Source: a virus
Reading direction: 5' to 3' (one strand)
IMG/VR virus record: IMGVR_UViG_3300017758_000062
Coordinates: 1 to 32,566 of that record
DNA length: 32,566 bases
This document shows, in pieces, positions 9,754-32,476 of this stretch. Under the pieces are notes generated by a model. It was not told the origin of the DNA and made no database searches. It saw nothing but the letters and a program-made list of their open reading frames with translations. A program made the position numbers and the translations under genes. The stretch's first letter is position 1. Each line of letters starts with the position of its first letter.

Positions 9754-9783
9754 TATTTTTTCCCAATTATATTTTATCATTAT

Positions 9784-17711: not shown

Positions 17712-18437
17712 TTAGCTAGAAGCTTTTTCTTTTCTTGCAGCACCATCGTAATCAGCACAAGTTAGACCTCTTCTGGTCAACATTGTTTTAACGCCTCTTA
17801 CAGTTTTGCCAATTTCGTCAGCTATAGCTTCGACAGTCATGTCGCCTAAGTCACTGACTTCCGCTAAAGGATCAGCTTTGCTAGAACCTTTAGTTTCTTT
17901 TTGCTTAGGTATAGCGCCTATGTCGCCACTTCTAAGTAAGCTAAGAGCCTTTCCTCTGATAGAGTTAACAGTTTTGCCAAGTGCGTCTGCGATTTCTTCA
18001 ACAAATGCACCATCGTTTACCATGCTAGTAAAGGTTGCTTCTTCTTCGGGAGAGTAAGTTCTAACTGATTCAGGTTTCTCAGCTGGTTTTACATGAGAAG
18101 TTAATTCCATTGAGAGGATCTTCCCTTGTATTGATTTAGCAGAAAATGCTCCGCTCTCGAAAGAGTTAGCAATATCTGCATATGTGTATGCACCAGAGTT
18201 ATCTGTTACAAATGCTTGTAGTGTGGCTTCTTGTTCTTCAGAAAAAGTTCTGTTTGATACTGAAGAAGCGAGTTCTACGTCGTGTCCCATTTTTCTTAAT
18301 TTGCTAGAAACTGATCTTGTTGAAGTTTCTAACTCATCAGCAGCGTTAGCTACTGTGGCTTGTGAGATAGGTGACTCACTGCCTACGAAGTCAACTAATT
18401 GTTGAGTTCTTTCATCTGTCCATTTTGGTAATGCCAT
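17712..18437 (-). CDS. DNA-binding protein with four SANT/HTH-like repeats
   Basis: 241 aa containing four related helical units: KWTDERTQQL to KLRKMG (5-51), FSEEQEATLQ to ILSM (65-110), YSPEEEATFT to SLLRSG (128-171) and DMTVEAIADEIGKTVRGVKTMLTRRG (in 199-224). Each ends in a recognition-helix-like S/R-rich segment (TSTRSVSSKLRKMG, GKTVNSIRGKALS, GKTVRGVKTML). The linker near 175-190 is basic and Ser-rich. Strong RBS-sized gap to ligase-C and single-copy position before the helicase suggest a regulator or replication-origin binder; both are inferences. Related repeats occur in genes at 21838, 28962 and 30397. Confidence 0.75.
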   Translation of the reverse strand: MALPKWTDERTQQLVDFVGSESPISQATVANAADELETSTRSVSSKLRKMGHDVELASSVSNRTFSEEQEATLQAFVTDNSGAYTYADIANSFESGAFSAKSIQGKILSMELTSHVKPAEKPESVRTYSPEEEATFTSMVNDGAFVEEIADALGKTVNSIRGKALSLLRSGDIGAIPKQKETKGSSKADPLAEVSDLGDMTVEAIADEIGKTVRGVKTMLTRRGLTCADYDGAARKEKASS

Positions 18438-21837: not shown

Positions 21838-22278
21838 TTAGTTATTTATTGCGTTGATTACACCTGCGAAGTAAACTGCGGCTTTGCCAGTTAGCTTATC
21901 AATGATGTCAGCGTCAATTTCTTGACCTGCATCAGTTAAAGCACCCTTTAGGGTTTCCTGTGCATCTGCTTTGCTTACTCTAGATGTACCACCACCTGTA
22001 GATGGTGAAGTACTTCTAGCTGCAGGAGATTTTTTCACATAAACGCCAGCTTTTGTAAGAATCATTCTGACTCCATTAGGTGATTCACCTAACTCTTCAG
22101 CTATGTCTTTTACGATTTCCATTGATGTCTCTGGAGTTGCTTCTGCATCTGTGTACATTTCAACTGCCTGAGCTTTGGATTCATCTGTCCATGCCATTCT
22201 TCTTCTCCTTTTTGTACCTCGATAGCCAGGATATGTACCTAGTTTTTCGAGTTGTTGTTGATAAAATCTATCTCCCAT
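21838..22278 (-). CDS. WTDE-type HTH DNA-binding protein
   Basis: 146 aa. A basic N-terminus (GTKRRRRM) leads into AWTDESKAQAVEMY and a helix-turn-helix (IVKDIAEELGESPNGVRMILTKAG, 55-78) like repeats of the 241-aa protein. A Ser/Thr/Gly linker follows, then a helical C-terminal unit (SKADAQETLKGAL to AVYFAGVINAINN) that may dimerise. ATG 22278 lies 8 bp from the -10 box, giving a leader of about 2 nt. A second ATG at 22197 has AAGGAG upstream and could give a shorter form; the basic codons also create that site. Confidence 0.75.
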   Translation of the reverse strand: MGDRFYQQQLEKLGTYPGYRGTKRRRRMAWTDESKAQAVEMYTDAEATPETSMEIVKDIAEELGESPNGVRMILTKAGVYVKKSPAARSTSPSTGGGTSRVSKADAQETLKGALTDAGQEIDADIIDKLTGKAAVYFAGVINAINN

Positions 22279-24891: not shown

Positions 24892-25011
24892 TTAATGTAA
24901 TAAATTATTGTGGTTATAGTATTGCCATAACCATTTGTCTATTTTTTCTTGACTCCAGTCTTTTGGGAAAAATACTGTGCATAAAGGTTTATCTCGTAAT
25001 ACGACTCTCAT
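24892..25011 (-). CDS. 39-aa hypothetical micro-ORF
   Basis: An ATG at 25011 inside the end of the 189-aa gene (23-bp overlap) opens a frame starting MRVVLRDKPL, with CTVFFPKDWS and WLWQYYNH. GAGG lies about 9 bases upstream. It fills the gap before MazG, but there is no homolog I can name, so it may be spurious. Confidence 0.45.
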   Translation of the reverse strand: MRVVLRDKPLCTVFFPKDWSQEKIDKWLWQYYNHNNLLH

Positions 25012-25558
25012 AGTCTGCTTCCTCTTCTAACCACCATTGGGGCTTGTCTCTGTACTTCCACTCTGCAAAGGTTGCTTTGTCTTTGTGGTAGAATCGCCTA
25101 TAAGCTTCGACTGCGTTATCTCCTTTGAGTTCGTCTGGCATAGCCTGAGCAAATGACGTGAGTCCACTCCTTGGTAGAATGATGTCGGGTAATTTGAGTA
25201 TGACATCATACACTGATTTATGTTCCTTTCCATACCTGTATCTGTATTCATCATTGAGTGCGAGCGCATAGCAGAAAAGCCACTCATAATTATCAAGACT
25301 AACCCTAGCCCAAATAGTACAAGGGTGGTTGTACATAGTAGGTAAGTAAGGAAAGTCTCTGACTTCATTTGTTTTAGCTTCTTTGATAATTTGCCATTCA
25401 TGTGATTCTAGTTTTCTCGGTATGTGTCCTAAGTATTTTGTTATCCAATGATTTGTACACAACATCTGTGCAGCTTCTAAGGGCATTTTCACAATGTGTT
25501 TATCCACATGAGCTTCTGCACACTTGTCTATGTTTTCGTCAAGTATAAAAATATTCAT
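24989..25558 (-). CDS. Conserved phage protein of unknown function, leaderless start
   Basis: 189 aa. The opening MNIFILDENIDKCAEAHVDKHIVKMPLEAAQML is a pattern I associate with a phage family sometimes annotated as pyrimidine-dimer glycosylase-like; I cannot confirm that name. Many H, W, Y and R residues (NHPCTIWARVS, RRFYHKDKATFAEWKYRDKPQWW) suggest a nucleic-acid enzyme. The ATG starts 6 bp from the -10 TATAAT, so the transcript should begin at the A of ATG with no ribosome site. Confidence 0.7.
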   Translation of the reverse strand: MNIFILDENIDKCAEAHVDKHIVKMPLEAAQMLCTNHWITKYLGHIPRKLESHEWQIIKEAKTNEVRDFPYLPTMYNHPCTIWARVSLDNYEWLFCYALALNDEYRYRYGKEHKSVYDVILKLPDIILPRSGLTSFAQAMPDELKGDNAVEAYRRFYHKDKATFAEWKYRDKPQWWLEEEADYESRITR

Positions 25559-28926: not shown

Positions 28927-28955
28927 TTGACTTTAGTTTCTCATTTTGGTATAAT
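28927..28955 (+). promoter_or_regulatory. Sigma-70 promoter, plus strand, leaderless transcript
   Basis: TTGACT (28927-28932), 17-bp spacer, TATAAT (28950-28955). Six bases separate the -10 from ATG 28962, so transcription is expected to begin at that A. Confidence 0.9.
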
Positions 28956-28961
28956 ACTTGT

Positions 28962-29135
28962 ATGGAAAAAATTAATAAATGGACTGATAAACAAGTAAAG
29001 CTTCTCAAGAGGTTTTACGGCGAGATCGAAATCAGTGAGATGGCAATTATGCTAGAAAAATCTCCGCAAGCCATACGAAGCAAAGTGCATTACCTCCGCA
29101 AAAGAGGTTGGACTTTTGATTCAACACGAAGATAA
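28962..29135 (+). CDS. 57-aa WTDK-type HTH protein
   Basis: Single helix-turn-helix unit: KWTDKQVKLLKRFYGEIEISEMAIMLEKSPQAIRSKVHYLRKRG (6-49), matching the repeats of the 241-aa protein. The frame is open further upstream, but the promoter puts the transcript start at this ATG. It is the first gene of the only plus-strand unit on the right, close to the divergent promoters, so it could regulate both. It precedes bS21 by one base. Confidence 0.75.
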   Translation: MEKINKWTDKQVKLLKRFYGEIEISEMAIMLEKSPQAIRSKVHYLRKRGWTFDSTRR

Positions 29136-29136
29136 T

Positions 29137-29352
29137 ATGCGAAGAAAACCACCACAATACAACTTTGACAGACTATTAAGAAACTTTAAGCGTAAGGTTC
29201 AAAAGTCTGGCAAGTTAGAGGATTTTCGAAATAAGCAGTATTATACTAAGCCAGCACAAAAGAGACAACAGAAAATGAACGCTGCAAAACGGAGAGCAGC
29301 ACAGACTCAGAAAGAAAATTCTCTCAAGCCACTTCCACGACACCTACGCTAA
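29137..29352 (+). CDS. rpsU: Phage-encoded ribosomal protein bS21
   Basis: 71 aa from ATG 29137. NFDRLLRNFKRKVQKSGKL (9-27), then EDFRNKQYYTKPAQKRQQK and a basic tail match bS21 (fDxALRRFKRxxexaGxlxexRrRxxYEKPxxkRkrk). bS21 sits on the 30S platform near the anti-Shine-Dalgarno end of 16S rRNA and turns over easily; phage copies are known in marine phages and can replace the host protein. ATG follows the HTH stop (TAAT-ATG). There is no clear ribosome site, so coupling is likely. Confidence 0.9.
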   Translation: MRRKPPQYNFDRLLRNFKRKVQKSGKLEDFRNKQYYTKPAQKRQQKMNAAKRRAAQTQKENSLKPLPRHLR

Positions 29353-29450: not shown

Positions 29451-29479
29451 TTGTAATATTGTTAAAATTGTGATATAAT
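29451..29479 (+). promoter_or_regulatory. Plus-strand promoter of the intergenic region
   Basis: TTGTAA (29451-29456), 17-bp spacer, TATAAT (29474-29479), with TG before the -10. The -35 is weaker than in its relatives, the rest is identical in design. Predicted start about 29486, with no convincing gene behind it. Confidence 0.75.
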
Positions 29480-29485
29480 AATAAC

Positions 29486-29612
29486 ATAAATTGGCAATAA
29501 CGAAGATAGCTACTGTTTATAAACCAACAAAACTAATACAAAGAGCATCACTCGAGAGACAGCTCTTCCTTAGAAGAGATGGTCTCGAAGACTGATGTCT
29601 CTTATTGAATTG
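29486..29612 (+). ncRNA. Candidate structured small RNA
   Basis: Starts at a good promoter. CAATAA (29495-29500) can pair with TTATTG (29602-29607) to close the unit; inside are CTCTT/AAGAG and CGAGA/TCTCG stems around 29550-29586 and AGAC/GTCT (29590-29600), with an alternative AAGAGA/TCTCTT pairing. An alternative reading is a 34-codon ORF from TTG 29491 to the TGA at 29593. No RNA family was recognised and the 3' end is a guess. Confidence 0.4.
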
Positions 29613-29668
29613 TTGTATCTATATATAATTAAATCAATTAATTGTACCACTTGAATCTAACAACGCTA

Positions 29669-29857
29669 ATGTCAATTAAACACTTCAACACAATTGAGTA
29701 CGATTCCGTCCTCTTTTCAACTAAACTTTCTTCCATAACTTCCGCCAACCGAAAATATTTAAAAGCTATTTTACTTATAAGTTTAAGTAACTTAATGCAC
29801 ATTGCACTCATCTTTTGTAAATTCCCCCTAGACTATTACTACCCCGTTGCGGTTTGA
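29669..29857 (+). CDS. 62-aa hypothetical ORF in the intergenic region, doubtful
   Basis: ATG 29669 opens a frame starting MSIKHFNTIEYD with a hydrophobic helix (AILLISLSNLMHIALIF) and ending in the first ACCCCG repeat. No ribosome site is visible and it lies downstream of a putative non-coding RNA. It may be a small membrane protein or simply chance. Confidence 0.3.
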   Translation: MSIKHFNTIEYDSVLFSTKLSSITSANRKYLKAILLISLSNLMHIALIFCKFPLDYYYPVAV

Positions 29858-29893: not shown

Positions 29894-30151
29894 TTAAAAC
29901 TTCTCTTTAAATACTTTATAGCCCTTGAAAGATCCGTCTTCGTTCCATTCATAGATTGGTTTTGCAACCCCGTATGGGTTCTCTCCCTTTCCTACATATT
30001 TAAATTGCTTGTAGACTGTGCTAGGATTTACATAGTCAAAGTATCTATCTACACAAGTATTTTGTTCCTCTGCGTACTTTTCTACCTCGTCATATTGTCC
30101 TAGCACTAATTCTCCATTTTGTAACTTAGCCAGTTCAGTCCCTGTAAGCAC
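29894..30151 (-). CDS. 85-aa hypothetical protein, GTG start
   Basis: GTG at 30151 is chosen because GGAGGT lies five bases before it; longer frames from 30187 have no such site. Sequence LTGTELAKLQNGELVLGQYDEVEKYAEEQ, then DRYFDYVNPSTVYKQFKYVGKGENPYG. Mixed alpha/beta with a G/N-rich loop. Last gene of the right-hand unit. Function unknown. Confidence 0.65.
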   Translation of the reverse strand: MLTGTELAKLQNGELVLGQYDEVEKYAEEQNTCVDRYFDYVNPSTVYKQFKYVGKGENPYGVAKPIYEWNEDGSFKGYKVFKEKF

Positions 30152-30404
30152 TTTGACCTCCATCAATTTCCATAAACTCATCAACACTTAGCTCTTCGCT
30201 AGAGTCAATCCAGCTCATATCAATTTCAGTTTCTTGCTCTTCTGTTTCAGTCTTAGTAACACTACTGGAATCTTCACCAGCACAGTAATCATCTAGCAAT
30301 TCCTCAGCATCTTTCTCTGTCTCAGCTATGATTTGTACTTCTTCAACTATCCAGATAGTTTTCTCTATCTTGCCTATGTATTTCTTCATTACATGATTAG
30401 CCAT
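30135..30404 (-). CDS. 89-aa acidic hypothetical protein
   Basis: A short basic start (MANHVMKKYIGKIEKTIW), a strand-helix unit (VEEVQIIAETEKDAEELLDDY) and a strongly acidic middle (ETEEQETEIDMSWIDSSEEL). The strand-helix part resembles small phage proteins with repeated beta-alpha units. Overlaps its neighbours by 8 and 17 bp. Function unknown. Confidence 0.65.
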   Translation of the reverse strand: MANHVMKKYIGKIEKTIWIVEEVQIIAETEKDAEELLDDYCAGEDSSSVTKTETEEQETEIDMSWIDSSEELSVDEFMEIDGGQSAYRD

Positions 30405-30735
30405 TTTGTATCTCCAGTATTACTTTATTGACATTTTCAGTTAGGTACTTAATATCTTGCTTTGGGGCTTTCTCCAATCCCATAATTCTCGTACTATCTA
30501 TATCTAGTAGCTGGGATAGATTTAATATTATGTCTGCCTTTGTCATTGGCACTTCACCTGTTTTTGTTTTGTAGACTTGCTTTTGGTATACGCCTTCTCT
30601 ACTCAGCTTTCCAATTATAGATTTTATACTCTTGTCAAACTCTTTTGCTAAGGTTTCAACGCAATCTCTAGTTGGGTCAGCTTTGTACCATGCTACCATT
30701 ACTTCTACTTGTTCGTCTGTATAATTCGTCGCCAT
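30397..30735 (-). CDS. YTDE-type HTH protein
   Basis: 112 aa. NYTDEQVEVMVAWY and ETLAKEFDKSIKSIIGKLSREGVY (27-50) form the same HTH unit as in the other family members. A second region (PMTKADIILNLSQLLDIDSTRIMGLEKAPKQDIKYLTENV) is a helical extension. In an operon of unknown early genes it is a candidate regulator. Confidence 0.72.
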   Translation of the reverse strand: MATNYTDEQVEVMVAWYKADPTRDCVETLAKEFDKSIKSIIGKLSREGVYQKQVYKTKTGEVPMTKADIILNLSQLLDIDSTRIMGLEKAPKQDIKYLTENVNKVILEIQNG

Positions 30736-32338: not shown

Positions 32339-32476
32339 CTACTCCTTATCTTTATGTTTTACCTTTCGAGAATATTTTGACCTGTCGCGGAACTTAGTTG
32401 CACGATTAAATAACCTAGCAAATTTTGCTACAGGGTTGAACTTTTTTCTCTTGGTATTTTTTTGTTCTTTTTTCAT
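32339..32476 (-). CDS. 45-aa highly basic protein, first gene of the early operon
   Basis: ATG 32476 lies 9 bp after the -10 box, giving a leader of 2-3 nt. The peptide is very rich in K and R (KKEQKNTKRKKFNPVAKFAR, RDRSKYSRKVKHKDKE), with a short helix, and could bind RNA, DNA or the ribosome. It is not similar to bS21 by motif. Being first behind a strong promoter suggests abundant early expression. Confidence 0.7.
   Translation of the reverse strand: MKKEQKNTKRKKFNPVAKFARLFNRATKFRDRSKYSRKVKHKDKE

Follow-up and report, generated by a model that had tools for sequence, protein, structure and literature searches.

The window, by which we mean the whole 32.6-kb virus record that was analysed, carries T5-like replication genes. 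These include an A-family DNA polymerase whose best phage hits (about 44% identity) we take to be T5-like, an NAD-dependent ligase that is split in two genes and a D5-like protein. No tRNA was found in the window. Near the replication genes, and in the same block, lies a plus-strand unit of two genes driven by a near-consensus sigma-70 promoter. The first cistron (28962-29132, with its stop codon extending to 29135) encodes a 57-amino-acid HTH protein, for which no Pfam match exceeds its cut-off and the similarity to D5-like regulators is weak (phrog_323, E 2.2e-6). This one phage has several genes for DNA-binding or HTH proteins, D5-like or of phrog_1725 (17712-18437, 21838-22278, 30397-30735 and 28962-29135). 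The second cistron (29137-29349, with its stop extending to 29352) encodes a 71-amino-acid ribosomal protein bS21 and has no usable Shine-Dalgarno (SD) motif. Its product is matched by Pfam Ribosomal_S21 (PF01165; 51.2 bits, cut-off 27), by NCBIfam TIGR00030 (49.3 bits, cut-off 28.95) and by phrog_21469 of PHROGs, and most of a profile of the phage bS21s aligns with bacterial bS21 chains in solved ribosome structures.

The promoter of this unit (28927-28955, plus strand) is of the sigma-70 type, with TTGACT and TATAAT separated by 17 nt and a TG before the -10 element. It opposes a 12/12 promoter on the minus strand (28895-28867), which makes the unit divergent, as described in the earlier note. 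The opposing promoter serves an ORF of 98 amino acids (28838-28542) that has no assigned function and is provided with a leader and the SD-like sequence AAGGA. Beyond bS21, a promoter-like sequence (29451-29479, plus strand; TTGTAA-17-TATAAT with an extended -10) precedes a conserved non-coding region (29480-29749) whose core, at 29540-29606, is a structured RNA. The gene after this region (29894-30187, minus strand) is convergent, and there is no plus-strand gene there.

A second conserved RNA is located nearby on the minus strand, where an hsp20 gene (28147-27716) is preceded by a promoter (28403-28375) and a leader of approximately 220 nt that includes the conserved segment 28149-28356. This leader has two hairpins ahead of its SD sequence and contains long invariant stretches (GTCTGGCACGAGTAGG, TCCGAGGG, AGGAG, CCACC and CGGG), and 16 of its 30 consensus pairs show double changes among 16 sequences. 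It has no Rfam match at E values up to 5, and it is possibly a riboswitch or a thermosensor for the phage Hsp20.

Predicted start and translation of the HTH-bS21 transcript

The genes, the promoter spacing, the gene junctions and their conservation can be read directly from the sequences. The -10 element ends at position 28955 and is followed by ACTTGT and then by the HTH start codon at 28962. Transcription starts about 7 nt after a -10 element, and the mRNA is therefore predicted to begin at the HTH AUG or within one nucleotide of it, so that a strong promoter has its expected start at an AUG. For comparison we used 21 loci of the T5-like group that hold both the HTH gene and bS21, each of which was scanned for a -10 element with the HTH start no more than 13 nt after it. 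The gap between the two is 6 nt in 20 of the 21 loci and 5 nt in the remaining one. Fifteen distinct promoter strings are represented, 14 of them with the 6-nt gap, and this spacing is kept although identity of the HTH protein falls to 67% (among four of the 21 loci). Promoter-like sites in the whole region are no more frequent than expected by chance (49 found versus 52.8 expected), and for this reason the evidence for a leaderless promoter is that of position and conservation. Together with the family matches, the conserved gap bears out the proposal in the earlier note that bS21 is the second gene of a transcript predicted to be leaderless.

In the window, the bS21 AUG is located 1 nt after the HTH stop codon, and in several relatives it overlaps that stop. 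More generally, the HTH stop and the bS21 start overlap or lie no more than 2 nt apart in 10 of 18 loci; the other eight carry one or two extra genes in between, the first of which is SD-led. Six distinct relatives have genes inserted in this position. The best SD-like match before bS21 is no longer than 4 bases (15 loci). A start that abuts or overlaps the preceding stop with little or no SD sequence of its own, as seen in the window, makes it probable that bS21 is produced by translational coupling to the HTH cistron. Given this weak or absent SD sequence and the predicted leaderless start of the HTH gene, initiation at both cistrons appears to be independent of SD pairing.

Leaderless starts and bS21 in related phages

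The count in the earlier note of at least four leaderless or near-leaderless starts in this phage also stands. In addition to the HTH gene (ATG at +6 from the -10 element), there is a second predicted leaderless gene on the minus strand (24989-25558; promoter 25593-25565, ATG at 25558, +6), whose product is presumably DNA-repair glycosylase-like. Two minus-strand genes are near-leaderless, one encoding a phrog_1725 DNA-binding protein (21838-22278; promoter 22315-22287, ATG at 22278, +8) and the other located at 32339-32476 (promoter 32514-32486, ATG at 32476, +9). A fifth candidate, orf9780, was rejected. In most of the relatives listed, its ATG (position 9780) comes 2-3 nt after a perfect -10 element, which is before the point where transcription could plausibly begin, and the gene is therefore not leaderless in those relatives; its true start is probably an in-frame ATG downstream. 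As a separate observation, most relatives have the ATG of the orthologue of the window gene starting at 22278 at a distance of 5-9 nt from the -10, and in three loci (L009, L010 and L067) the ATG directly abuts TATAAT. Either the promoter or the start must differ in these three, and hence not every such ATG can be a real start.

To describe the group as a whole, we defined strict promoters as those with at least 5/6 matches in the -35 element, a perfect -10 element and a 17-nt spacer, and considered ORFs of at least 40 amino acids. An ATG at exactly +6 is present for 30 of 110 promoter clusters in a first set of 97 loci, compared with 7 of 1780 control TATAAT sites that lack a -35 element, and for 42 of 151 clusters in a larger locus set. 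On this sequence evidence, leaderless starts are a feature of the early genes in this T5-like group of marine phages. The promoters of the group (166 clusters from T5-like loci) have in common an extended motif, AAAATAgTTCTTGACat...TATAATATA, and its AAAATAgTTCTTGACat part extends upstream of the usual -35 element whether the promoter is leaderless or leadered. An SD motif is present for 25 of 54 leadered promoters, or about half. In a 91-kb relative (G001), leaderless genes fall within the first 20 kb, with one more near the other end, and none was seen in the 20-90 kb bins, which include the structural block. Of 97 genes called in G001, 41 are preceded by an SD-like motif of at least 4 bases, compared with 10% of background windows, and the frequency is similar in early and late blocks; gene calls for this record are rough.

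Eleven of the 16 virus records that hold the polymerase or bS21 loci of the group encode bS21. Five of those 11 were found by way of bS21; a fairer figure is obtained from the records selected through the polymerase, of which 6 of 11 encode bS21, and those without it are fragments of 19-39 kb. On this count the gene is common in the group, and it may belong to its core. When genome contigs were searched for a host with a profile of the phage bS21 alignment, only two distant matches were obtained.

The earlier note also suggested that phage bS21 retunes host ribosomes towards mRNAs without ribosome binding sites, and we compared phages with and without the protein by counting, for each record, how many strict promoters are followed by an ATG at any position from +5 to +9. 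Leaderless starts are frequent in the T5-like records G001 (9/23), G002 (8/18) and G004 (8/17), in the window (4/12) and in G003 (4/6), a T5-like fragment in which there is no bS21. Among T4-like phages with bS21, two have leaderless starts (G035, 7/17; G022, 3/8) and four have essentially none (HTVC008M, 1/16; G017, 0/14; G032, 0/9; G033, 0/8). In four T4-like bS21 contigs (L298, L304, L306 and L316), the DNA polymerase gene and another early gene have their ATG at +6. The phages without bS21 were G018 (1/20) and G019 (1/21), with 160 kb of each covered, P-SSM2 (1/23; 200 kb covered), T5 (0/10; 95 kb covered) and the pelagipodophages HTVC010P (0/1), HTVC011P and HTVC019P, the last two of which have no such promoter. 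Pooled, they give 3 leaderless starts among 75 promoters, in a comparison where host and lineage are confounded with bS21. A search of G018 and G019 gave no bS21; for P-SSM2, T5 and the pelagipodophages its absence is taken from the annotation and from the lack of these phages among 21 matched phage records. A 22-kb fragment (L228/G036) has 4 of 5 promoters leaderless and no bS21 was seen in it.

We also scanned for the pattern TTGAC-N18-TATAAT-N6-ATG. Among the at least 120 loci listed, 13 have two or more leaderless starts. Among the matches listed, bS21 is present in 5 of these 13 records, at least 7 of which are relatives of the window, and in 7 of 50 records from the other 107; the seven are mostly very long records, and the contrast is therefore no evidence for an association. 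Judged from these sequences, bS21 does not predict leaderless starts. The part of the suggestion that holds is that a genuine bS21 is the second gene of a unit predicted to be leaderless and that leaderless starts are common in the T5-like group; the lack of an excess in four of six T4-like bS21 phages speaks against the remainder, and the link of bS21 to leaderless translation is weak.

A structured RNA downstream of bS21

A promoter-like sequence and a conserved region follow bS21 in all 16 loci read. The core of this region (approximately 67 nt) was aligned for 12 sequences, leaving out two loci with altered cores (L108 and L279) and the near-identical L002. Thirteen of its 19 consensus pairs have changes on both sides, and 94.7% of cells pair versus 33-48% when the partner is slid. 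U-G pairs occur on the plus strand, which is therefore favoured as the RNA strand. As the next gene is convergent, the structured RNA is not a leader. Some copies (L006 and L097) form a hairpin with one C/U-rich and one G/A-rich strand. The resemblance of this hairpin to an SD/anti-SD duplex was discarded as an explanation, since L011 and L014 do not retain the SD-like strand, and a hammerhead ribozyme was likewise discarded because its core letters are not kept.

The RNA model matches 20 of 49 sources; 19 of these 20 are bS21 loci from the group, and the remaining one, L279, is a bS21 locus at a greater distance. The model has no match in 60 T4-like, T5 and other control sources. When whole records are considered, the RNA is present in 10 of 22 as a single copy each. 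All close T5-like bS21 loci that hold downstream DNA are matched except L108, whose core is altered, and five more distant bS21 records (G042, G043, G046, G047 and G034) have no match. No Rfam 15 family exceeds its gathering score at 29540-29606, and the structured RNA was not found in literature searches on phage bS21 at the level of titles and abstract openings.

Possible roles of phage bS21

Among the ribosomal proteins carried by phages, bS21 is described as by far the most frequent (PMC9976891). Another phage bS21 enters E. coli ribosomes, which keep about 5% of their activity (PMC6375957); these experiments show that the protein is incorporated and that activity is lost, but do not show that leaderless mRNAs are preferred. 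In Bacteroidetes phages, bS21 has been connected with late transcription and with the selection of phage mRNAs (PMC9723584). In Flavobacterium, bS21 helps to hide the anti-SD sequence and the host rpsU gene has an extended SD sequence (PMC9976891), and YchF, a regulator of leaderless translation, crosslinks to bS21 (PMC8138138). The lambda cI mRNA is named among known leaderless mRNAs (PMC9031893), and bS21 binds OLE RNA in a species of Bacillota (PMC12054373). No paper joining phage bS21 to leaderless phage mRNAs was found when the literature was searched by title and abstract opening.

Several known systems share features with the window. Pelagibacter phage HTVC008M is likewise an aquatic phage with an S21-family protein and hsp20 nearby, but it is T4-like, has cobS upstream of bS21 and shows no excess of leaderless starts. 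T5 and other Demerecviridae likewise have an A-family polymerase, a split NAD-dependent ligase and a D5-like protein, with promoters annotated upstream of early genes; Escherichia phage T5, however, is not among 21 phage records with a bS21 match and none of its 10 strict promoters is leaderless. For freshwater Bacteroidetes phages, entry into ribosomes favouring phage mRNAs has likewise been proposed, although their bS21 gene is beside late structural genes (PMC9723584), whereas that of the window accompanies a regulator gene in an early block. Leaderless mRNAs of the lambda cI type have the start codon at the 5' end, as predicted here, but the window group differs in having many such early genes with the promoter at a fixed 6 nt. 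The OLE ribonucleoprotein also combines bS21 with a structured non-coding RNA (PMC12054373); OLE RNA as described there is cellular, approximately 600 nt long and bound by bS21, whereas the phage core is about 67 nt and is known here from adjacency and structure. The new element is thus a phage bS21 in an early module, predicted to be leaderless, beside a structured RNA; phage bS21 itself was already known.

We consider it somewhat probable (about 0.55) that the locus is an early operon in which a leaderless HTH mRNA also yields bS21 by coupling, and that this bS21 is exchanged onto 30S subunits in a way that favours phage mRNAs generally. The main RNA polymerase of the host would start the operon at the strong promoter close to the HTH gene, the mRNA would begin at, or within one nucleotide of, the HTH AUG, and ribosomes finishing the HTH cistron would restart at the bS21 AUG. 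Early in infection, phage bS21 would most likely take the place of the host protein on the 30S platform and would then shift initiation towards phage mRNAs in general. From the arrangement of the locus we infer where transcription starts, that the cistrons are coupled and expressed early, and that the protein may enter ribosomes and affect translation. Some observations do not sit easily with this proposal. In a different phage group, bS21 is transcribed with late structural genes (PMC9723584), and ribosomes containing a phage bS21 retained almost no activity in vitro (PMC6375957). In addition, further genes separate HTH and bS21 in several T5-like groups, and in L009, L010 and L067 the ATG of another gene directly follows the -10 element.

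A narrower proposal is that phage bS21 gives ribosomes a preference for leaderless phage mRNAs, its own included, which would create positive feedback. The co-occurrence of bS21 and leaderless starts in the T5-like group and in G035 and G022, the near absence of such starts from the tested phages without bS21 and the dependence of bS21 itself on a predicted leaderless mRNA agree with this proposal. We nevertheless judge it quite unlikely, given the four T4-like bS21 phages without an excess, the leaderless-rich fragments L228/G036 and G003 without bS21, and the SD motifs of leadered promoters, which imply that the phage also needs SD initiation. Ribosomes that lack several small-subunit proteins, bS21 included, reportedly translate leaderless mRNA, which also argues against a preference of this kind. 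The comparison among phages does not favour the preference, and the layout of the locus alone does not show it. The reverse arrangement, in which bS21 is not needed for the early leaderless genes but assists later SD-led mRNAs, so that ribosomes are prepared for the structural genes, is unlikely but has some appeal: the leaderless genes of G001 are confined to the early block and one far end, SD-like motifs precede many of its genes, and a service of phage bS21 in late translation has been proposed (PMC9723584). The similar SD frequency in early and late blocks of G001 weakens this explanation, and so does the roughness of its gene calls.

It is also conceivable, but quite unlikely, that bS21 binds the downstream structured RNA as its partner and thus has a role outside the ribosome, either instead of or in addition to one within it. 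The consistent position of the RNA after bS21 and the reach of the RNA model across close T5-like loci (L108 excepted) point in this direction, as do the C/U-rich and G/A-rich hairpin strands of L006 and L097, and Halalkalibacterium bS21 binds OLE RNA at a helix like an SD/anti-SD duplex (PMC12054373). By that analogy, a partnership between phage bS21 and the RNA may be regarded as a fair idea. Loss of the SD-like strand in L011 and L014 and the lack of a model match in the five distant bS21 records count against it, and adjacency is not binding. A more elaborate version, which we consider highly improbable, is a three-part early module of leaderless HTH gene, bS21 and RNA, in which the RNA loads or controls bS21 and the resulting ribosomal ribonucleoprotein shifts the cell to phage messages. 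If this were true, a bS21 made only from a leaderless mRNA without SD pairing would reprogramme initiation by host ribosomes together with an adjacent RNA.

The early-operon reading that we prefer would place a bS21 operon without SD signals among the early genes of uncultured marine phages that have many relatives in IMG/VR, whereas the earlier report was of late placement. Such early placement would permit a clean test, in which exchange of bS21 is set against the start signals that the ribosome accepts. Because bS21 is known to bind one non-coding RNA, the adjacent structured RNA may offer a second handle on the function of this protein.
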